From NCBI RefSeq assembly GCF_024609215.1, contig NZ_JANIPD030000005.1:1-49886 (forward strand): 49,886 bases of DNA, read 5' to 3'. A program made the position numbers and the translations under genes. The notes beneath the pieces were generated by a model. The model made no database searches. It was not told the origin of the DNA and saw only the letters and a list, made by a program, of their open reading frames with translations. Positions 570-9,262 of the stretch are shown here, piece after piece (position 1 is the stretch's first letter; each line of letters begins with the position of its first letter). Source of the stretch: Curtanaerobium respiraculi. GTDB taxonomy: Bacteria; Actinomycetota; Coriobacteriia; Coriobacteriales; Eggerthellaceae.

Positions 570-698
570 CATACCAACGGACACGTGGCCATCGAGGACC
601 CGGACGGCGCGCGCATCACCGGCTCCATCGCCAACACCGCCGTCGAGGAGCTGGGCATGGAGGTCGGCAAGCCGGTCTACGCCATCGATATGAGCTCG
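570..698 (+). pseudogene. molbindin (Mop/TOBE) domain remnant
   Basis: In one plus-strand frame this stretch encodes a recognisable molybdate-binding Mop-type domain, with the typical core ITGSIANTAVEELGMEVGK followed by PVYAID. Such domains occur in ModE, ModC and stand-alone molbindins. There is no start codon or Shine-Dalgarno site in a sensible place, the domain is preceded by non-coding GC-rich sequence, and the frame continues into sequence that is the antisense of the antitoxin gene. I read it as a fragment left by a rearrangement. Its end overlaps the last codons of the antitoxin gene. Confidence 0.55.
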
Positions 699-943
699 TT
701 GTCGCACGCGCGGCGGATGAAGGCGGACCTGGATATGCCCTCCTTCTTGGCAGCGCGGTCTATCGCGGCGAGCTCGAAGTCGTAGAACTTCGTGGACGCC
801 GTCCTCATCCTGGCGGCGGGCTTCCCCTCCACGGGCTCCCCGAATGCGAAGCCGCTCCAATCCCCGTTCTCGAATTTCTCCACGTCGGCCTCCACCTCTT
901 CGGGCGTCGTGCCGAACGCCTCGCAAAGCTCCCTGTCACTCAT
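677..943 (-). CDS. ribbon-helix-helix antitoxin-like protein
   Basis: 88 residues. The C-terminal half has the pattern of a CopG/Arc ribbon-helix-helix DNA-binding domain: a basic strand (RMRTASTKFY), helix A with AIDRAAKKEG, turn, then SRSAFIRRAC. The N-terminal half is acidic and could wrap the partner protein. Its ATG overlaps the stop of the upstream gene by ATGA, so the two are translationally coupled. Toxin-first gene order matches BrnTA-like modules. Likely role, by inference: neutralise the upstream protein and repress the shared promoter. The last codons run into the molbindin remnant, so the natural C-terminus may have been altered by the rearrangement. Confidence 0.6.
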   Translation of the reverse strand: MSDRELCEAFGTTPEEVEADVEKFENGDWSGFAFGEPVEGKPAARMRTASTKFYDFELAAIDRAAKKEGISRSAFIRRACDNELISMA

Positions 944-1215
944 CGCGCCCTCCTTCCGAATCCGAGCTCCTTCTTGACCCTCTCCTGGGGAGGGGTTTGC
1001 GCGTGCTTAACCAGCCAGTCGCCGCTCTTGTTCCTGATCGCAATCACTTCCAGGAGCCTGCCCTTCGCATCATAGCCGATGCCGACGTGCTCCTCGGACT
1101 CCCTGCCGACGCGCGGCATGCTCCTGACGCAGTGAAGCCATGCGTGCGCGGCGTCCTCCTTCGATATGTCGGGGTGACGCTCGTGCACCCTGTCCAACAC
1201 GAATATCCTGTCCAA
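940..1215 (-). CDS. putative BrnT/DUF4258-like toxin
   Basis: 91 residues from a TTG start chosen because GGAGGTG lies 7 bases upstream; an ATG at 1254 in the same frame has no such site. The protein has the layout of small actinobacterial ribonuclease-like toxins: an N-terminal basic helix with DRVHERH, an ISKEDAAHA helix, then strands EEHVGIGYDAKGRLLEVIAI and a terminal WLVKHAQTPP followed by ELGF. The His in VKHA and the Arg/Glu residues are plausible active-site candidates, but this is inference from the family pattern. It is followed by a coupled ribbon-helix-helix gene. Alternative: a non-toxic small protein of an uncharacterised family. Confidence 0.55.
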   Translation of the reverse strand: MDRIFVLDRVHERHPDISKEDAAHAWLHCVRSMPRVGRESEEHVGIGYDAKGRLLEVIAIRNKSGDWLVKHAQTPPQERVKKELGFGRRAR

Positions 1216-1234
1216 GCCAGCACCTCCATGGGTA

Positions 1235-1262
1235 AGTATAATGGATAATACCATATGATATT
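1235..1262 (-). promoter_or_regulatory. promoter and operator candidate of the toxin-antitoxin pair
   Basis: AT-rich island in otherwise GC-rich DNA. It holds minus-strand -10-like hexamers TATACT (1235-1240) and TATTAT (1245-1250), and a 16-base near-palindrome AATACCATATGATATT (1247-1262; 14 of 16 positions symmetrical) suited to a ribbon-helix-helix repressor. No clear -35. Confidence 0.45.
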
Positions 1263-1671: not shown

Positions 1672-2721
1672 TCAGATAGAGCGGTCCTGACCGAAGTTCG
1701 AGTTCGACTTCCTCCATTCGCGCGGGCTCTTCCCCGTGGCGCGTTTGAACATCGCGCTGAAATTGTTCTGGTAGGTGAACCCCAATTCGGACGCGATGGA
1801 GGCGATGCTCGCATCGGTATCCGCAAGCAGCCCCTTAGCCGCCGCAACCCGCTTCTCCGTGAGATAGGAGCCGATGGTCATGCCCTCGCTCCTCGCGAAC
1901 GAATCGCAGAGCTTCGTCTTGCTGACGAGCAGGGCCGCCGCCAGCTCGTCGAGGGATAGGGGATTCGCGATATCGTCGACGATGCTCGCTTTGACCCGCT
2001 CCGCTATCTCGACATCAGAGAGACGCCCCGCCCGGGATCGCCCCCGGTTCCCTCGGAGCGAGGAATCAACTAGGTCGGCGACCACCCGATACGCGTGCCC
2101 GCGGAGGTACAGCTCGGCCCCCGGCAGGCGCATCCGCCCTACCGAGAAAGAGGAGAAATCGTTGCGAAGCCTCAGCTCGGACTCCGTCGGCAACGCTTCC
2201 GAAAAGACCCTTTCCAGCTCCCGGGGATCGATCGAGGTGCAGGATGAGATCCTTTCCATGAAACGAGGGAGTATGCTGATCTCGCAAATGTGGTGCGATG
2301 AGCCTTTCCGAAGCCGGTACTCCTGCCTTCCCGGCTCCGCGATGTAGGTGAGCAATCGACGCCTGAACGCGGAGGGGAGCTGGTTTTCGAAGCCCGCCAG
2401 CTCCGCGTCCCCTCCTTGGGCGCGCGCGTGGTCGAGTACCACCTTCGCGTCGATATCCGCCAGCAAGGAGATCCTCCACTGCTTGCAGGAGGGGGCCTCC
2501 ACCAGGTCGAAATCAGATTTCTGGACGATCCTCTTGACCGACACCACGCACCCGCCCTCGGCCCTCCCGGCCCAGAACCACCCGTCTGCATCCGACGAGC
2601 CTATGCGTGCGAGCAGCCCGTAGGCGATGGGCAGCGGCTCCGCGCCGAGCTGCCGGAGCTGCTCGGCGAACACGGACCGTTCGTCCTCATCGAACCGTGA
2701 GAGCTCTTCCTCAAGTCGCAT
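1672..2721 (-). CDS. AraC family transcriptional regulator
   Basis: 349 residues from an ATG with GGAGG 8 bases upstream; a longer form from 2778 lacks such a site. The C-terminal ~100 residues are a double helix-turn-helix AraC domain: LSLDELAAALLVSKTKLCDSF (first), then ASIASELGFTYQNNFSAMFK and the closing GKSPREWRK. The N-terminal ~230 residues match no domain I recognise and probably bind a ligand. The gene diverges from the ABC/ECF operon, the same layout as ybtA beside ybtPQ in yersiniabactin loci, so it is a likely activator or repressor of that transporter. The stop codon lies just 3 bp from the degV repeat, so the last residues may be altered. Confidence 0.85.
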   Translation of the reverse strand: MRLEEELSRFDEDERSVFAEQLRQLGAEPLPIAYGLLARIGSSDADGWFWAGRAEGGCVVSVKRIVQKSDFDLVEAPSCKQWRISLLADIDAKVVLDHARAQGGDAELAGFENQLPSAFRRRLLTYIAEPGRQEYRLRKGSSHHICEISILPRFMERISSCTSIDPRELERVFSEALPTESELRLRNDFSSFSVGRMRLPGAELYLRGHAYRVVADLVDSSLRGNRGRSRAGRLSDVEIAERVKASIVDDIANPLSLDELAAALLVSKTKLCDSFARSEGMTIGSYLTEKRVAAAKGLLADTDASIASIASELGFTYQNNFSAMFKRATGKSPREWRKSNSNFGQDRSI

Positions 2722-2761
2722 TCCCTTTTCCTCCAAATATATTCCAAATAACATTTTACAT

Positions 2762-2767
2762 ATTATA
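2762..2767 (-). promoter_or_regulatory. -10 element (TATAAT) for the AraC regulator
   Basis: Perfect minus-strand TATAAT about 40 bases upstream of the chosen ATG, in an AT-rich intergenic stretch. No good -35 at 17 bp. Confidence 0.5.
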
Positions 2768-2834
2768 TTGCATGCCATCTTCTCGCTTTCACCGGCACGC
2801 CCCGCCTAAAACCTATCGTTATCCAGATGAAGAG

Positions 2835-2853
2835 TTAGCTAAGTCTAACCAAA
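2835..2853. promoter_or_regulatory. DtxR/IdeR-type iron box upstream of the ABC/ECF operon
   Basis: TTAGCTAAGTCTAACCAAA matches the DtxR/IdeR consensus TWAGGTWAGSCTWACCTWA at 16 of 19 positions (mismatches at 5, 10 and 17). It sits 30 bases upstream of the first ABC gene's ATG, where a bound repressor would block transcription or elongation. Consensus is established for DtxR-family iron repressors; use by this organism is inferred. Confidence 0.65.
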
Positions 2854-2882
2854 GGATCGAGAACCTGGAGGATCGAAGGGAT

Positions 2883-4679
2883 ATGGGCGTGAAAAAGGAT
2901 GAGGGCCCGGCGCGACGTCTGCTCGCGTATGCAGGCGGAAGGAGATGGCTCGAGCACGTCGGCTGCCTCCTCTCCGCCGTCGCGATGGCTGCGAGCATCG
3001 TCCCCTACCTGTGCATCTGGCTCATCGCGAGGGACCTGATCGCCGTAGCCCCCGATTGGTCGGCGGCATCCGGAATCGTCGGCTACGGCTGGGCGGCGCT
3101 CGCCTTCGCGATAGCGGGACTCGCGCTCTATTTCGCCGGCCTCACCTGCACCCACTATGCCGCCTTCAGAACGGCGTCGAACATGAAGAAGGCCTGCGCG
3201 GACCATCTGATGCGCGCGGAGCTGGGCTATTTCGATACCCATGCGACCGGCTTGCTGAGGAGGCGCATCGAGGACGCCGCAGCCGGTACCGAGCAGTACC
3301 TCGCCCACAACCTGCCCGACCTCTGGGGATCGGCCGCCCTCTTCGCATCCATGGTCGCCCTCATGCTCTTCTTCGACTGGCGCATGGGCCTCTCCTGCCT
3401 CATCCCCGTCGCCATCTCCATCGCCTGCATGAGGACGATGGGCGGCAAGAGGCACGCGGAGGACATTCGGGCATACATTGCCGCCATGGAGACCATGGGG
3501 AAGACGACCACGGAGTTCATCCGCGGGATCCCCGTCCTGAAGATATTCCAGCAGACGGCCCAGGGCTTCTCCTCATTCCGGAAATCGGTCGAGGAGTACA
3601 GCGCGCGAGCCCGACGCTACGAAGGTGAGATCTGCCTTATGCCCCAAAGCGTGAACCTCACCTTCGCAGCAGCCTCCTTCGCTTTCCTGATACCCGTCGT
3701 CGTCTTGCTCGCACCCGCATCCCCGAATCTCGGGGATCTTACGGCGTCGTTTTTCTTCTACGCCATATTCTCGGCGATCATCAGCACCGCCCTGGCGCGC
3801 ATCATGTTCGCGAGCAAAGGGCGTTCTGTCGCCGAGCAGGCGTTGGCCCGCTTCGACGAGGTCCTCTCCGCCCCGGTGCTCGAATCAGCATCGGCTCCTG
3901 CGCAGCCCGTCGAGCCCGACAGGTGCTCGATCGAGTTCGATAACGTCTCGTTCTGCTACGAGGGGGCGGATGCGCCAGCTCTTGACGGAGTCTCCTTCCT
4001 CGTTCCCGCGAGGAGCTTCACCGCGCTCGTCGGTCCTTCCGGCGGCGGCAAAAGCACCTTGGCCGCATTGGTGCCGCGTCTGCGCGATGTGAGCGAGGGC
4101 GCCGTCCGCATAGGCGGCACGGACGTGAGGGAGATGGAACCGGAGAGCCTTATGGGCCTTGTCTCGATCGTGTTCCAGGGAAGCGGCCTTTTGAAGGGGA
4201 CCCTGCGCGACAACGTCGCGCTTGCACGCCCCGATGCAACGGACGAGCAGGTGGCCGAGGCGCTCGCCGGAGCTCGCTGCGCCGATATCATCGAGAAGCT
4301 CCCATACGGCCTCGAGACGCTGGTCGGCCCAGACGGCGTGCATCTTTCGGGGGGCGAGCGGCAGCGCGTGCTGCTCGCGCGCGCCCTGCTGAAGGACGCG
4401 CCGATACTCCTCCTCGATGAGGCGACGGCATATGCGGACCCCGAAAACGAAACCCTCATACAGGCGGCTCTCGGGGAGCTTGCGCGAGACAGGACCGTCC
4501 TGATGGTCGCGCATCGCCTTTCGACCGTTGCGGACGCGGACCGCATATTCGTGATGGAGGATGGAAAGGTCGTCGAAGCCGGCACCCACGAACAGCTCAT
4601 GTCATCGAACGGCGTGTACGCGGGCATGTGGCGCGACTACGTCCGCGCAAGCGAATGGAAGATGGGTGATGAGGCATGA
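2883..4679 (+). CDS. ABC transporter permease/ATPase half-transporter (YbtP/IrtA-like)
   Basis: 598 residues; start ATG with GGAGG 11 bases upstream. An exporter-fold membrane domain with about six helices (residues ~25-310) is followed by a nucleotide-binding domain (~345-590) with Walker A GPSGGGKST (~384), signature LSGGERQ (~489), Walker B ILLLDEAT (~510) and the switch His in VAHRLST. Its stop overlaps the next gene's start by ATGA, and the pair is expected to form a heterodimer. Exporter-fold pairs such as YbtPQ and IrtAB import ferric siderophores, and the iron box, divergent AraC gene and ECF genes favour that role here. Drug or peptide export remains possible. Confidence 0.85.
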   Translation: MGVKKDEGPARRLLAYAGGRRWLEHVGCLLSAVAMAASIVPYLCIWLIARDLIAVAPDWSAASGIVGYGWAALAFAIAGLALYFAGLTCTHYAAFRTASNMKKACADHLMRAELGYFDTHATGLLRRRIEDAAAGTEQYLAHNLPDLWGSAALFASMVALMLFFDWRMGLSCLIPVAISIACMRTMGGKRHAEDIRAYIAAMETMGKTTTEFIRGIPVLKIFQQTAQGFSSFRKSVEEYSARARRYEGEICLMPQSVNLTFAAASFAFLIPVVVLLAPASPNLGDLTASFFFYAIFSAIISTALARIMFASKGRSVAEQALARFDEVLSAPVLESASAPAQPVEPDRCSIEFDNVSFCYEGADAPALDGVSFLVPARSFTALVGPSGGGKSTLAALVPRLRDVSEGAVRIGGTDVREMEPESLMGLVSIVFQGSGLLKGTLRDNVALARPDATDEQVAEALAGARCADIIEKLPYGLETLVGPDGVHLSGGERQRVLLARALLKDAPILLLDEATAYADPENETLIQAALGELARDRTVLMVAHRLSTVADADRIFVMEDGKVVEAGTHEQLMSSNGVYAGMWRDYVRASEWKMGDEA

Positions 4680-6445
4680 TGTTCTCTGAAAAGCTCAAGG
4701 AGAGGTACTTCCTGTCGGATCACGGCCTTGGCATCATCAGGCGCGGCGCGCTCTGGACCGCCGTCGTGAACCTCGTAGACATGATCGGGATAGCGTTCCT
4801 CTTCTACATCGCCGAAAAGCTCGTGGACTGCCTGGCGGGTTCGGCCGAGCTTCCCGATCCCGTTCCCGTCCTATCTCTTCTCGCCCTCTACCTCTTCGTC
4901 TCGCTCCTCGCGCACAGGCTTCAATACCGCGCGACCTACACGGCGGTCTACGGAGAAGTTGCCGCGCTGAGGATGTCCATCGGCAACCGGTTGCGCCGGC
5001 TGCCCCTCGGCTTCTTCGGTAGGCGGGATCTGGCCGACCTCGCCGAGGCGGTCATGGGGGACGCAGCCGTGCTGGAGCACGTCTGGTCGCACGTGCTCGG
5101 CTATCTGCACGGCTCACTCGCCTCGACGGCGATCATCGCGGTCGTGCTCGCGATCTTCGACTGGCGGCTCGCGATCGCCTCCCTTTGGAGCATCCCCGTC
5201 GCGTTTATGCTTTTGGGATTCTCCCGCATCTGGAGCGAATCGAGGCAGGCCGAGGCGAAGGCGGCCTCGCTGTCCGTATCCGCGTCCCTGCAGGAGATGC
5301 TCGAGAACGTCCGGGAGCTGAGGGCGGCGGGCAGAGGGGGCGAATACCTTCGCAAGGTGCATGGCGAGGTCGATTCGTTCGAGAAGGCGACATCGAGGGC
5401 CGAGCTCGTGAGCGGGCTCACGGTCAACTCGGCCTCGGCGGTCCTGCGCCTCGGAATGGCAACGACGATCCTCGCGGGGTCTTCGCTCATCGCGTCCGGG
5501 GGAATAACGTTCATGACCCTGTTCGCGTTCCTCCTCGTGATAACGCGCGTATACGCCCCCTTCGACCAGTCGCTTGCCCTCATCTCGGAGCTCTTCTCGT
5601 CCCGCCTCTCGGCCGAGCGCCTCCGCTCGCTCATGCAGGAGCCCGCGGCCAGCGGTTCCGAGACATTTTCCCCGCGCGGGCACCGTATCGAATTCTCGGA
5701 CGTGGCTTTCTCCTACGGAGAGGAGCGCGTGCTCGACGGGGTCTCGTTCTCCGCGGAAGAGGGCCGGGTAACGGCGCTCGTGGGCCCCTCCGGCTCCGGC
5801 AAGTCGACATGCGCGCGCCTGGCGGCCCGCCTGTGGGATCCGCAGCGAGGAACGATACGCGTGGGCGGCGTCGATGTCGCGGCAATAGATCCGGAAGCGC
5901 CTCTCGGATGCTACTCGATGGTGTTCCAGGATGTTGTGCTCTTCGATGACACGGTCATGGAGAACATCCGCATGGGGCGGAAAGGGGCGAGCGACGATGA
6001 CGTGAGGGCGGCCGCCCGCGCCGCCGAATGCGACGAGTTCGTCCGGAAGCTCCCGCAAGGCTACGGAACGAGGATCGGGGAGAACGGGACCAGGCTCTCG
6101 GGCGGACAGCGCCAGAGAATCTCCATCGCACGCGCCCTGCTGAAGGACGCGCCGATACTCCTCCTCGACGAGGCGACCGCCTCGCTCGATGTCGAGAGCG
6201 AGACCAAGGTGCAGACCGCGCTGTCGCGCCTCGCCCGAGGCAAGACGGTGCTGATGATAGCCCACCGCATGCGCACCGTGGAGGGCGCCGATAAGGTGAT
6301 CGTCCTCGAAAGGGGGCGGGTGGTCGAAGAGGGCCGGCCCTCTGACCTCGCTGCGCTGGAAGGCAGCAGGTTCTCCCGCATGTGCCGGCTTCAAGATGAG
6401 GGCGGATCGGGAATCCGGGTCCACGGCATGGGCCCTTCCAAATAA
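4676..6445 (+). CDS. ABC transporter permease/ATPase half-transporter (YbtQ/IrtB-like)
   Basis: 589 residues from the first of two consecutive ATG codons (4676 or 4679). Membrane domain at ~20-310, ATPase domain ~330-580 with Walker A GPSGSGKST (~370), LSGGQRQ (~475), Walker B ILLLDEAT and AHRMRT switch region. It overlaps the previous half-transporter by four bases and is the obvious partner. The DNA around its Walker B (about 6133-6170) is nearly identical to the matching part of the first gene. By the YbtPQ/IrtAB precedent the heterodimer would sit in the cytoplasmic membrane and take up a metal-chelate; this is inferred from context. Confidence 0.85.
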   Translation: MMFSEKLKERYFLSDHGLGIIRRGALWTAVVNLVDMIGIAFLFYIAEKLVDCLAGSAELPDPVPVLSLLALYLFVSLLAHRLQYRATYTAVYGEVAALRMSIGNRLRRLPLGFFGRRDLADLAEAVMGDAAVLEHVWSHVLGYLHGSLASTAIIAVVLAIFDWRLAIASLWSIPVAFMLLGFSRIWSESRQAEAKAASLSVSASLQEMLENVRELRAAGRGGEYLRKVHGEVDSFEKATSRAELVSGLTVNSASAVLRLGMATTILAGSSLIASGGITFMTLFAFLLVITRVYAPFDQSLALISELFSSRLSAERLRSLMQEPAASGSETFSPRGHRIEFSDVAFSYGEERVLDGVSFSAEEGRVTALVGPSGSGKSTCARLAARLWDPQRGTIRVGGVDVAAIDPEAPLGCYSMVFQDVVLFDDTVMENIRMGRKGASDDDVRAAARAAECDEFVRKLPQGYGTRIGENGTRLSGGQRQRISIARALLKDAPILLLDEATASLDVESETKVQTALSRLARGKTVLMIAHRMRTVEGADKVIVLERGRVVEEGRPSDLAALEGSRFSRMCRLQDEGGSGIRVHGMGPSK

Positions 6446-6479
6446 GCAAACCCTTGGCAGCAAAGAAGAAAGGACTCTC

Positions 6480-7112
6480 ATGGCAGATCAAGCACGGGAA
6501 TCAACAAAAATACCAGGCGATGGGACGCAGAGGCGCCTCTCGGTCAAGGACTTCGCAACGATGGACATCTTCTGCACCGTCATGTTCGTCATCTTCATGG
6601 CCTACTCCATACTCACCGGGGCCTCACTCTTCTACTCGATGATCTTCAACGCCGCCGGCGCCGCGCTCATCCTCTCGCCGTTCTACATGTACATGAGCAT
6701 GAAGGTCGGCAAGCACGGCCCGGCGTTCGTCTACAACCTCATGTGGGCGATCGTCGCGGGGCTCATGATGGGGCCGTTCATGGTGCCGTGGTTTCTCGGC
6801 GGCGGCATCCTGGCAGAACTCTCGATGGTTGGCAAGGGCGCGTACCACGATGTGAAGCGCGTTGCAATCTCGTGGATCGTCTGCTGCCTCGTGAGGGCGG
6901 CCCATGGCATGAGCGAGATATGGTTCTTCAAGGACGCGTTCCTCGCCACGGGCGTGAGCGACGCCCAGATCCAGATCCAGACCCAGTTCTACACCGACCC
7001 CCTGTGGGTGTGCGTGAGCCTCGCCGTCACCGTCGCCCTCGCCGTGCTCGGCTGCTATCTCAGCAACAAGCTCGTGGTTAAGCACTTCAGGAAAACCGGG
7101 GCCATCAAGTAA
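6480..7112 (+). CDS. ECF transporter substrate-binding membrane protein, Trep_Strep (TIGR02185) type
   Basis: 210 residues; ATG with AAAGGA 6 bases upstream. After a polar N-terminus the LSVKDFATMDIF motif begins a five- to six-helix membrane protein, with a conserved loop KVGKHGPAFVYNLMW and a glycine-rich segment (LMMGPFMVPWFLGGGI). This matches the Trep_Strep family of S components found in Treponema and Streptococcus next to EcfT/EcfA. S components bind the substrate and dock on EcfT. The two following genes are EcfT and EcfA, with no gap. The substrate of Trep_Strep proteins is not established to my knowledge; the iron box and flanking half-transporters suggest an iron complex. Confidence 0.75.
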   Translation: MADQARESTKIPGDGTQRRLSVKDFATMDIFCTVMFVIFMAYSILTGASLFYSMIFNAAGAALILSPFYMYMSMKVGKHGPAFVYNLMWAIVAGLMMGPFMVPWFLGGGILAELSMVGKGAYHDVKRVAISWIVCCLVRAAHGMSEIWFFKDAFLATGVSDAQIQIQTQFYTDPLWVCVSLAVTVALAVLGCYLSNKLVVKHFRKTGAIK

Positions 7113-7805
7113 ATGAGGCCGCTGAATGCCATTCATTTCGACTTCCGGGCCAAGCTCGTCGTCGCAGTCATGGTCATGTCGCTTGTCGCCCTTCTGGCGA
7201 GCGACATGGCCATCTACCTGCTCATGGCCGTGCTCGCGATCTACCTCGCGGTGCAGGGGCTGGCGAGGCACGCCCTCGCCTACCTCTCCGTCGCCCTGGT
7301 CCTCATCGGGATGCGTGTGCTATCGGGCGGAAACGGCATCACCTTCCTCCTGCCGGAGATGTTCCTCTTCATGCTCCTGCGCACCGTGCTCATGCTCATG
7401 GCGGCGGAACCCCTTTTGGGGATGCCGCCCGGGGAGGTGGTCGCGGTCTGCAAGAAGCTGCACGCGCCCGACCTCCTCTCGCTCCCCCTCACCTTCATGT
7501 TGCGTTTCATCCCGGCCGTCCGGGGCGAGTTCCGCGATGCGGCCGACTCGCTCAGGACGCGCGGCCTCCTGTCCGTCCGCCATCCCGGCAGGGCGTTCGA
7601 GTACGCCGTGACGCCCGTCATATTCCGTTCGTCGAGAGTCGCCGAGGAACTGGCGGCGTCGGCGGAGAGCAGGGGGATATCCTCCCCCGGAGCTCACAGC
7701 TGCCGACGGGAGATACGGTTCGGTTGGAAGGACGCACTGCTCGTCCTCCTCAGCGCGGCCACCTTCGCGACGTGCATCTGCATCGACAAGGTGGTCCTCG
7801 GGTGA
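7113..7805 (+). CDS. ecfT: ECF transporter transmembrane protein EcfT
   Basis: 230 residues, starting directly after the TAA of the S-component gene. Several hydrophobic helices in the first 110 residues, then the long cytoplasmic coupling helices carrying the two short Arg-Gly motifs typical of EcfT: TRG at ~149-151 and SRG at ~186-188. These couple to the ATPases. A final membrane helix follows near 205-225. Overlaps the ATPase gene by GTGA. It scaffolds the S component and the ATPases in the membrane. Confidence 0.88.
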   Translation: MRPLNAIHFDFRAKLVVAVMVMSLVALLASDMAIYLLMAVLAIYLAVQGLARHALAYLSVALVLIGMRVLSGGNGITFLLPEMFLFMLLRTVLMLMAAEPLLGMPPGEVVAVCKKLHAPDLLSLPLTFMLRFIPAVRGEFRDAADSLRTRGLLSVRHPGRAFEYAVTPVIFRSSRVAEELAASAESRGISSPGAHSCRREIRFGWKDALLVLLSAATFATCICIDKVVLG

Positions 7806-9262
7806 GCGGCGGCATCATCAGGCTCCAGGGGGTCTCGCTGACCTACGCTTCCGCTGACCGCCCGAGCCTGAAGGACATCGAGCTCGCCGTCGAAGCCGGG
7901 GAGCTCGTCGCCATCATAGGACCGTCCGGCTGCGGAAAGACCTCGATCACACGCGTCATAAACGGGCTCGCGGAGCAGTACTACGGAGGACATCTCACCG
8001 GAACCGTCAGAGTCGGCAGCTTGGATGTTCGCCGCGCCAAGCTGCACGAGGTGGGAAAGGCGGTCGGCTCGGTATTCCAGGATCCGCGCAGCCAGTTCTT
8101 CGCATCTCTTGTCGAGGACGAGGTGGCGTTCGGGATGGAGAACTACGGCATCCCCCATAGCCTGCTCGACGAGCGGGTGGACGCATCGCTCGCCCAGGTG
8201 AAGGCGGAATGCCTCAGGGGACGGGAGGTGTTCCCGCTTTCGAGCGGCGAGAAGCAGAAGGTCGCCATCGCCTCGGTAAGCGCCGTCGACCCGGCGGCCT
8301 ACGTCTTCGACGAGCCCTCCGCCAACCTCGACATGAAATCGGTAGGCGCCCTCGGAGACCTCATGGCGGATCTCAAGCGTCGGGGACGGGCGATCGTCAT
8401 CGCAGAGCACCGGATCTACTACCTGGCCGACATCGCGGATCGATTCGTCTATATGGAGCACGGCAGGATAATGCGCGTGCTCACCCGCTTCGAGCTGCTC
8501 TCCCTCAGCGCCGAGGAGCGAGCGCGCATGGGGATACGCAGCCCGGTGATCGGTCCGGGCAAATCCGCGCCCCGGCGCCGAGACGAGGGAGCCGGCATCG
8601 AGGTCTCGGGGCTATCCTTCACGGTGAAGTCCCGCCGCATCTTCGACGGCCTGGACCTTCGGATTCCTCAGGGGAACATGGTCGCCCTCATCGGCCGCAA
8701 CGGAATCGGGAAGACCACGCTTGCGAGGGTGGTCTGCGGCCTCGCGAAGGAGAAGAGCGGGACGATATCCTTATCCGGGGAGGCGATGGGCAGGAGGAGG
8801 AGACGCAGGACGTCCTACTTCGTCATCCAGAACGCCGATTGCCAGCTCTTCGCCGACAGCGTCGCGAAGGAGCTGCGCCTGAACCGTCCCGGTCTGACGG
8901 ACGATGAGGTCGACGAGCTTCTTGGGGCGTATGGTCTGGCCGACTTCCGAGACGCCCATCCGATGACCCTCTCGGGAGGACAGAAGCAACGGCTGGCAAT
9001 AGCCGTGGCGGAGCTGCTCGATGCACCCGTCATCCTGCTTGACGAGCCGACGAGCGGGCTGGACTTTCGCAACATGCAAAGGATAGCGGAGCGTCTGGGG
9101 ATGCTCGCATCGAACGGCAAGACCGTGCTCGTCATCAGCCACGATTACGAGTTCATCGCCTCGTCGTGCACGGCTGCGATCCGCATGGGCGGTCCCGGCA
9201 GAGCCGAGCGCATCGACATGGCCGAGCCGATGGGAGAACTGCTCGCCGCGCTCATGGAGTGA
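7802..9262 (+). CDS. ECF transporter energy-coupling ATPase, two fused ABC domains (EcfA-EcfA')
   Basis: 486 residues from GTG (AAGGTGG upstream, overlapping the ecfT stop by four bases). Two complete ABC ATPase domains are in tandem. Domain 1: Walker A GPSGCGKTS (~40), signature LSSGEKQ, Walker B AYVFDEPSANLD. Domain 2: Walker A GRNGIGKTT (~299), signature LSGGQKQ, Walker B VILLDEPTSGLD. Most ECF systems use two separate ATPase genes; here one polypeptide provides both. It ends the operon and overlaps the convergent folD gene by 11 bp. Confidence 0.9.
   Translation: MSGGIIRLQGVSLTYASADRPSLKDIELAVEAGELVAIIGPSGCGKTSITRVINGLAEQYYGGHLTGTVRVGSLDVRRAKLHEVGKAVGSVFQDPRSQFFASLVEDEVAFGMENYGIPHSLLDERVDASLAQVKAECLRGREVFPLSSGEKQKVAIASVSAVDPAAYVFDEPSANLDMKSVGALGDLMADLKRRGRAIVIAEHRIYYLADIADRFVYMEHGRIMRVLTRFELLSLSAEERARMGIRSPVIGPGKSAPRRRDEGAGIEVSGLSFTVKSRRIFDGLDLRIPQGNMVALIGRNGIGKTTLARVVCGLAKEKSGTISLSGEAMGRRRRRRTSYFVIQNADCQLFADSVAKELRLNRPGLTDDEVDELLGAYGLADFRDAHPMTLSGGQKQRLAIAVAELLDAPVILLDEPTSGLDFRNMQRIAERLGMLASNGKTVLVISHDYEFIASSCTAAIRMGGPGRAERIDMAEPMGELLAALME

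Follow-up and report, generated by a model that had tools for sequence, protein, structure and literature searches.

A promoter dyad shared with iron-type genes and siderophore-linked relatives suggest a ferric siderophore importer in a composite ECF/ABC operon of Curtanaerobium respiraculi

The DNA stretch analysed here, referred to as the window, comprises 49,886 nucleotides of Curtanaerobium respiraculi (Eggerthellaceae; assembly GCF_024609215.1, contig NZ_JANIPD030000005.1, positions 1 to 49,886 of the forward strand). Near its start lies a five-gene operon, in which two exporter-fold ATP-binding cassette (ABC) half-transporters are joined to an energy-coupling factor (ECF) module with a Trep_Strep S component. 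On balance, it is probable that this operon is induced by iron starvation and encodes an importer of ferric siderophores, most plausibly of the phenolate-thiazoline class (pyochelin, yersiniabactin or equibactin type). The evidence concerns a promoter dyad found before other iron-type genes of the same genome, the conserved co-occurrence of the two transporter types, and the linkage of related operons to siderophore biosynthesis.

The preliminary description of the window, made from its letters, had placed a gene for an AraC-family regulator divergently from the operon, and this layout is borne out by the coordinates and by Pfam and NCBIfam. The AraC gene (1672-2721, minus strand) matches PF12833 (HTH_18, E 8e-22) and PF00165. 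All other genes lie tightly packed on the plus strand: ABC1 (2883-4679) and ABC2 (4676-6445) overlap by 4 bp, a gap of 34 bp precedes the putative S component (6480-7112), the gene for the transmembrane coupling component EcfT (7113-7805) follows without a gap, and it overlaps by 4 bp the gene for a double ATPase, EcfA-EcfA', in one polypeptide (7802-9262). Judging from the letters, the first start codon is most likely that at 2883, with GGAGG directly upstream, and the bases from 2722 onward are most likely intergenic; no sigma-70-like promoter was found at 2650-2950. Both ABC proteins consist of ABC_membrane and ABC_tran domains (PF00664 and PF00005). The S component exceeds the curated cut-offs of PF09605 (E 5e-31; 108.6 bits versus 28.7) and of TIGR02185 (92.1 versus 76.45), the latter being named "MptD family putative ECF transporter S component", and its predicted structure (mean predicted local distance difference test score, pLDDT, 91) shows seven helices of at least 10 residues, while a sequence search of the PDB with it gave no meaningful match. 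EcfT is assigned by Pfam (PF02361, CbiQ; 32.9 bits versus a cut-off of 25) and by its TRG and SRG motifs, the NCBIfam EcfT model giving no match. The double EcfA has two ABC_tran domains and matches the NCBIfam ECF_ATPase models, TIGR04520 among them, below their cut-offs. Walker A, signature and Walker B motifs are kept in all four ATPase domains of the operon.

A DtxR/IdeR box had been reported in front of the operon. The match is real: TTAGCTAAGTCTAACCAAA at 2835-2853 agrees in 16 of 19 positions, with 3 mismatches, with TWAGGTWAGSCTWACCTWA, which we take to be the DtxR 19-mer consensus, and it is the sole match in the window, with 0 in 100 shuffles. However, the part that recurs in relatives is a 16-bp dyad, gTTAG-N6-CTAAc (2834-2849), overlapping the box, rather than the IdeR 19-mer as such. 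For example, GTTAG-N6-CTAAC is kept at the same position at locus L027 of genome G147, where no 19-mer within 5 mismatches was found on the scanned strand. A genome-wide scan with the 19-mer at up to 3 mismatches gave two places, the second being in the gap that separates AraC from the first operon gene at another composite operon (L014); the reversed-pattern control gave one. A survey with the 19-mer only found nothing at the Trep_Strep locus L013.

The dyad recurs within the genome. The genome (2.5 Mb, 44 contigs) carries eight Trep_Strep ECF modules, and the dyad core lies within 150 bp of seven of the eight operon starts, as assigned by hand; among all 256 half-sites of equal spacing, the next best reaches 1 of these 8 promoters. 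Genome-wide, the core TTAG-N6-CTAA has 32 sites, compared with 16 for the reversed control, and only 5 of the 32 are embedded in open reading frames (ORFs) of more than 150 codons, versus 1737 of 2200 random positions. The window's own site is among the five, lying ahead of the true start in a frame that extends too far. The dyad is also found near two of the three genes for DtxR-family repressors, at 149 and roughly 310 bp from their ORF starts. It precedes one feoB ORF by 23 bp, a second feoB by 0.7 kb and the ferrochelatase ORF by 159 bp, and further sites lie before the gene for a FecB-type binding protein, before DUF3793 genes and before aryl-AMP ligase and non-ribosomal peptide synthetase (NRPS) genes that diverge from each other. 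Two DUF3793 genes have the dyad at their start (L054:2497-3162, minus strand; L125:6464-7240, plus strand), and the family may belong to the iron regulon.

Related sites occur in other genomes. Of 41 divergent AraC regions (39 kb), 15 contained the exact core, which makes 13 of 26 on a count by S cluster; all the fetched DNA together, 1.33 Mb with these regions included, held 59 sites. With at most one mismatch, 25 of the 41 regions had the core, a figure that has no background comparison. A Corynebacterium aurimucosum plasmid carries the S component, EcfT, EcfA and both ABC halves in this order, preceded by TTAGGTAAGCCTTACCTTT, a DtxR box of 18/19 that ends 27 nt before the annotated S start. 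In a Subdoligranulum plasmid (Bacillota), the S component, EcfT and double EcfA are flanked by ABC halves on both sides, and a dyad lies 60 nt before the S match. Since the centre of the dyad differs from that of the DtxR 19-mer, we call it DtxR-type by gene content and not by box identity. The suggested control of the operon by iron would be exerted through the dyad, a reading that gains from the promoters it shares with feoB, dtxR, ferrochelatase and NRPS genes and from the Corynebacterium box. We also considered the dyad as a site of the AraC protein alone and set this aside, given that loci L009, L010 and L011 of the genome carry it without a divergent AraC gene and that it stands before feoB and dtxR. 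A dual role, for the iron repressor and for AraC, may apply; the single genomic site of G133 belongs to a composite operon with AraC.

Conserved co-occurrence of Trep_Strep S components with ABC pairs had been set as a test beforehand. Seven of the eight Trep_Strep loci of the genome, that of the window included, have an exporter-fold ABC pair near the ECF genes; at one of them (L011) the pair is set off, beginning some 1.2 kb beyond EcfA and with a separate dyad. The eighth locus (L010, contig C9) has no pair alongside, and a stand-alone pair (L128:1-3239, minus strand) lies on the same contig, 28 kb away, with a dyad 18 bp upstream and with transmembrane domains that match the ABC1 and ABC2 families of the composites in order (290 and 213 bits). 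In the Eggerthellaceae, Trep_Strep matches occur in 48 of 138 genomes (43 over the cut-off), with up to 12 copies each. The copies compared comprised the window, the seven other loci of the genome and 74 stretches picked by hand among the matches listed, i.e. 89 S copies in 82 stretches, which were clustered at 80% identity into 63 clusters. Within 8 kb and on the same strand, 48 of the 63 clusters have two or more ABC halves, compared with 6% of random positions in control stretches; 2 clusters have one half and 13 none. The control is not poor in transporters, because iron-linked stretches are among it. Two of the 13 clusters without halves are cut by contig ends, and in another four the pair lies on the opposite strand. 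In a scan of one clade, all 21 loci had a divergent AraC gene and EcfT, EcfAA' and S followed by ABC genes, with both halves in 20 and the remaining locus cut by a contig end; several of these loci are the same DNA as stretches of the larger set. In 18 stretches from beyond the family, most of them within its taxonomic order, 21 S copies were compared: 17 had at least two halves, two had one and two had none, a weak match in G451 having been left out.

The third line of evidence is the proximity of related operons to genes of siderophore synthesis. On contig C12 of the same genome, an NRPS, a thiazolinyl imide reductase (TIGR01761, 223 bits versus a cut-off of 188.8) and a phosphopantetheinyl transferase-like gene adjoin the composite operon L015. 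At the end of contig C2, an aryl-AMP ligase (TIGR02275, 470 bits, below the cut-off of 723) is divergent from the start of an NRPS with a carrier and a condensation-type domain, whose motif DxxxxDxxS we read as that of a cyclisation domain. Contig C32 holds a third NRPS piece, and we infer that the pieces on C12, C2 and C32 form one cluster. It had earlier been suggested that the operon may serve the uptake of foreign siderophores, as no synthesis genes were seen; this holds for the window, but the genome does have the aryl-AMP ligase, the ArCP-Cy NRPS and the thiazolinyl imide reductase. Among 396 Actinomycetota, with the two scans assumed to cover the same genomes, Trep_Strep was found in 16 and the reductase in 5, both in 3 (our genome included), where they lie less than 6 kb apart each time (Fisher p 5e-4), and in the Eggerthellaceae all 5 of the 138 genomes with the reductase have Trep_Strep (Fisher p 0.004); both tests ignore kinship and count our own genome. 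In G133 and G029, reductase and S component are about 20 kb apart, with NRPS matches between them. Siderophore-synthesis genes also lie near composites of G133 and G396, stretches L028, L083 and L084 contain matches to the aryl-AMP ligase and/or the ArCP-Cy NRPS, and G307 combines an ECF module with an NRPS and has no ABC pair. This neighbourhood suggests that a transporter family to which no cargo has been assigned imports siderophores; among the titles and abstract openings listed, with most subscription papers outside the search, none stated this composite class or a cargo of Trep_Strep/MptD S components.

As proposed, the ABC pair resembles YbtPQ and IrtAB. With profiles of the transmembrane domains only, built from 34 of 43 collected pairs, the best PDB matches of the ABC1 family were IrtA (191 bits) and YbtP (169), and those of the ABC2 family were YbtQ (136) and IrtB (125), the next family reaching 108 bits in either case, a gap that is clear for ABC1 and smaller for ABC2. 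In whole-protein searches, long two-domain exporters score higher, we think because both their halves add up. In the alignment of 34 ABC1 sequences, two histidines and two glycines of the transmembrane domain are invariant, and these may contact the cargo or metal.

Genes of the two transporter types are also joined in single reading frames. EcfA, EcfA' and ABC1 form one uninterrupted frame in seven loci (L009 and L015 of our genome, L062, L080, L091, L172 and L175). Five of them are in the clustered set, where L015, L080 and L091 share one S clade and L009 and L062 fall in others; L172 and L175 are of one genus. Both ABC halves are fused, with more than 1,200 codons, at L061, L088, L093, L102 and L103, the fusion of L103 being on the strand opposite to S, and a single EcfA domain and S share an open frame of 538 codons at L014:6182-7795.

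The earlier idea of two transporters in one operon for one cargo is supported as regards the operon, while strict pairing for one cargo is weakened. The distance matrices of S components and ABC pairs correlate across 41 operons (r 0.72; 0 of 999 permutations), but the per-operon ranks agree mainly inside one closely related clade and the correlation is negative for the seven operons of our genome, and strict co-evolution was abandoned as an explanation. The transmembrane domain of the window's ABC1 shares 50-53% identity with its counterparts in L069, L108 and L063, whereas no S component of that set exceeds 29% identity to the window's, indicating that the pair is a plug-in tied to the ECF class and not to one S component. 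In the comparison with a 15-kb stretch of G003 (L108), DNA similarity to the window is confined to ABC2, and the equal length (49,886) of contig C1 of G003 and the window's contig seems to be coincidental. Moreover, the nearest fetched relative of the window's S component (L027, 75.6%) has AraC, S, EcfT and double EcfA genes and no ABC pair, its AraC lying at the same place with 47% identity. It appears that ABC pairs and S modules have been reassorted among operons, and the argument for one cargo is therefore weaker than co-occurrence suggests.

Taken together, a working model can be formulated. An iron-loaded repressor of the DtxR family would bind gTTAG-N6-CTAAc and shut the operon, and would leave the dyad when iron is absent, as judged from the dyad and the gene content. 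The divergent AraC protein is likely a cargo-sensing activator, adding activation when the cargo is present, by analogy with YbtA and PchR, which are cargo-dependent AraC activators. The ECF module may be the main importer, taking the ferric siderophore at the membrane and carrying it in, a role modelled on the published genetics of the equibactin (eqb) locus. The YbtPQ/IrtAB-like heterodimer could handle cargo of this class too, providing a second way in or else clearing or recycling the siderophore; the earlier suggestion that one transporter may serve the chelate and the other the metal is a further possibility. A bolder version, which we find unlikely, is that the ECF module and the pair are physically coupled into a single siderophore relay, with four ATPase domains working in turn: the S component would capture the ferric siderophore, the exporter-fold pair would drive its release, a reduction-coupled hand-over or the return of the empty ligand, and the EcfA-EcfA'-ABC1 polypeptides would be the covalent form of this relay.

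The most serious alternative, though less probable than the main reading, concerns the direction of the ABC pair. It may be a true exporter within the same siderophore system, secreting or recycling the desferri-siderophore or removing its excess, with the ECF module as the sole importer. In Streptococcus equi, according to the available passages, EqbHIJ is needed for most equibactin-dependent 55Fe accumulation, which is lowered in the deltaeqbHIJ mutant, while deletion of eqbKL did not abolish the phenotype of an eqbA deletion and deltaeqbKL medium was twofold weaker in cross-feeding (PMC3672683). The 11 of 63 clusters without a same-strand pair, and L027, also fit an ECF module that imports on its own. 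On the other hand, the transmembrane domains of the pair match IrtAB and YbtPQ better than any exporter of the PDB, and the window contains no synthesis genes that export could serve. Both IrtAB and YbtPQ are importers, and are so named in their PDB entries. The eqb genetics thus favour a non-essential role of the pair, and the sequence favours import.

Less probable still is an importer of a zincophore or another divalent metallophore, as proposed for Mpt. In the passages seen, mptABC of Mycobacterium avium ssp. paratuberculosis is regulated by zinc and FurB and not by iron, and mptD-F rise alongside it under zinc starvation (PMC4298942). However, the dyad of the window is common to feoB, ferrochelatase and dtxR genes, and the Corynebacterium copy has the 18/19 DtxR box. 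Heme or a porphyrin is an even weaker candidate; the ECF transporter LhaSTA is described as importing heme in S. lugdunensis (PMC7299338), and the dyad before the ferrochelatase gene would suit it, but the neighbours of the relatives are NRPS and thiazolinyl reductase genes, no search having been aimed at genes for heme binding or degradation. That the operon encodes a vitamin or plain metal-ion ECF transporter whose neighbours are there by chance would accord with the ECF substrates listed in the same source (vitamins, Ni, Co; PMC7299338), but is hard to credit in view of the ABC pairs at 48 of 63 clusters, the seven in-frame EcfAA'-ABC1 fusions and the shared dyad.

Besides the neglect of kinship in the Fisher tests and the zinc response of mpt, several observations weigh against siderophore import as read here. 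The window gave no match at E 1e-5 to the genome's own thiazolinyl reductase, methyltransferase-NRPS, aryl-AMP ligase and ArCP-Cy NRPS, and most of the fetched Trep_Strep stretches show no siderophore gene. Reductase and S component are 62 kb apart in G102 and on different contigs in G142, and the reductase occurs without Trep_Strep in G225 and G368. The S component of the window stands apart: L027 excepted, no fetched copy is more than 32% identical to it, and 99 other relatives yielded no match at E 1e-30; a plasmid search with it gave no match either. As for the dyad, L013 has none at up to 2 mismatches near its start, a third feoB stretch of the genome has none at 1 mismatch, in G128, G133 and G147 its frequency does not exceed that of the reversed control, and some sites precede genes of no evident iron role; sites were also seen before an NMT1-type binding protein, an AAA_14/DUF4143 protein, a methyltransferase-like protein and ORFs of no family. 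Finally, MptD is linked to the window's S component through the name of TIGR02185 and not by direct comparison, and EqbHIJ is likened to the ECF module by description, the available passages not naming it an ECF transporter (PMC3672683).

If siderophore import is correct, the genomic evidence gives the Trep_Strep/MptD family, so far named "putative" without a cargo, a testable cargo class. Some gut Coriobacteriia would then be holders of many parallel importers of iron chelates, with as many as 12 Trep_Strep copies per genome, and the natural fusions allow one to ask whether two transporter architectures act as one machine.

Regarding the surroundings of the operon, an exact 257-bp repeat (1-257 and 1412-1668) lies within a DegV-family gene, and the contig starts inside it. 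The two degV copies are a C-terminal part (4-507) and a truncated one (1337-1690) ending at the AraC gene, which suggests that a rearrangement or insertion placed the operon next to degV. Between them, a gene for a ribbon-helix-helix protein (677-943, minus strand) overlaps one for a 104-residue protein of unknown family (940-1254, minus strand); the pair is perhaps a toxin-antitoxin or mobilisation remnant.

Among known systems, the nearest PDB relatives of the ABC pair are YbtPQ of yersiniabactin (6p6i, 8vsi) and IrtAB of mycobacteria (6tej, 7wiu, 9fw3 and others), the latter being the nearest transmembrane profile match of the ABC1 family and sharing the A-then-B order. The window's ABC1 lacks the siderophore-interacting (flavin adenine dinucleotide, FAD) domain of IrtAB, as judged by Pfam. 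The layout of YbtA and YbtPQ, an AraC regulator with a heterodimeric exporter-fold pair, is that of the window, and to our knowledge neither the YbtPQ nor the IrtAB system has an ECF module. LhaSTA is an iron-regulated ECF importer, as is proposed for the module of the window, but it carries heme, and the passages seen mention no exporter-fold pair (PMC7299338). The sifABCDE genes of Bifidobacterium breve were considered as a precedent and rejected, since their FtsX-type permeases, antiporter-like SifA and flavin mononucleotide (FMN) protein, as far as described in the passages seen, make up another system (PMC5449479).

Two loci come closest. In the passages seen, the equibactin locus of ICESe2 combines a permease/ATPase importer (eqbHIJ) and a YbtPQ-like pair (eqbKL) under a DtxR-like regulator, together with a thiazoline reductase and an aryl-capped NRPS, as found beside our paralogue L015; the window differs in having no synthesis genes, a divergent AraC gene and another gene order (PMC3672683). 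The mptABCDEF locus has IrtAB-like ABC genes followed by mptDEF, of which mptE and mptF are annotated as a cobalt-type permease and ATPase; as described there, it has three ABC genes versus two in the window, which has the DtxR-type dyad and AraC (PMC4132290, PMC4298942). The combination of an ECF-type module with a YbtPQ/IrtAB-like pair is thus already present in the eqb and mpt loci. New, as far as we have searched, are its occurrence as a rule throughout this transporter class, the dyad common to the promoters, the link to siderophore genes in several genera, the stand-alone pair and the fused frames.

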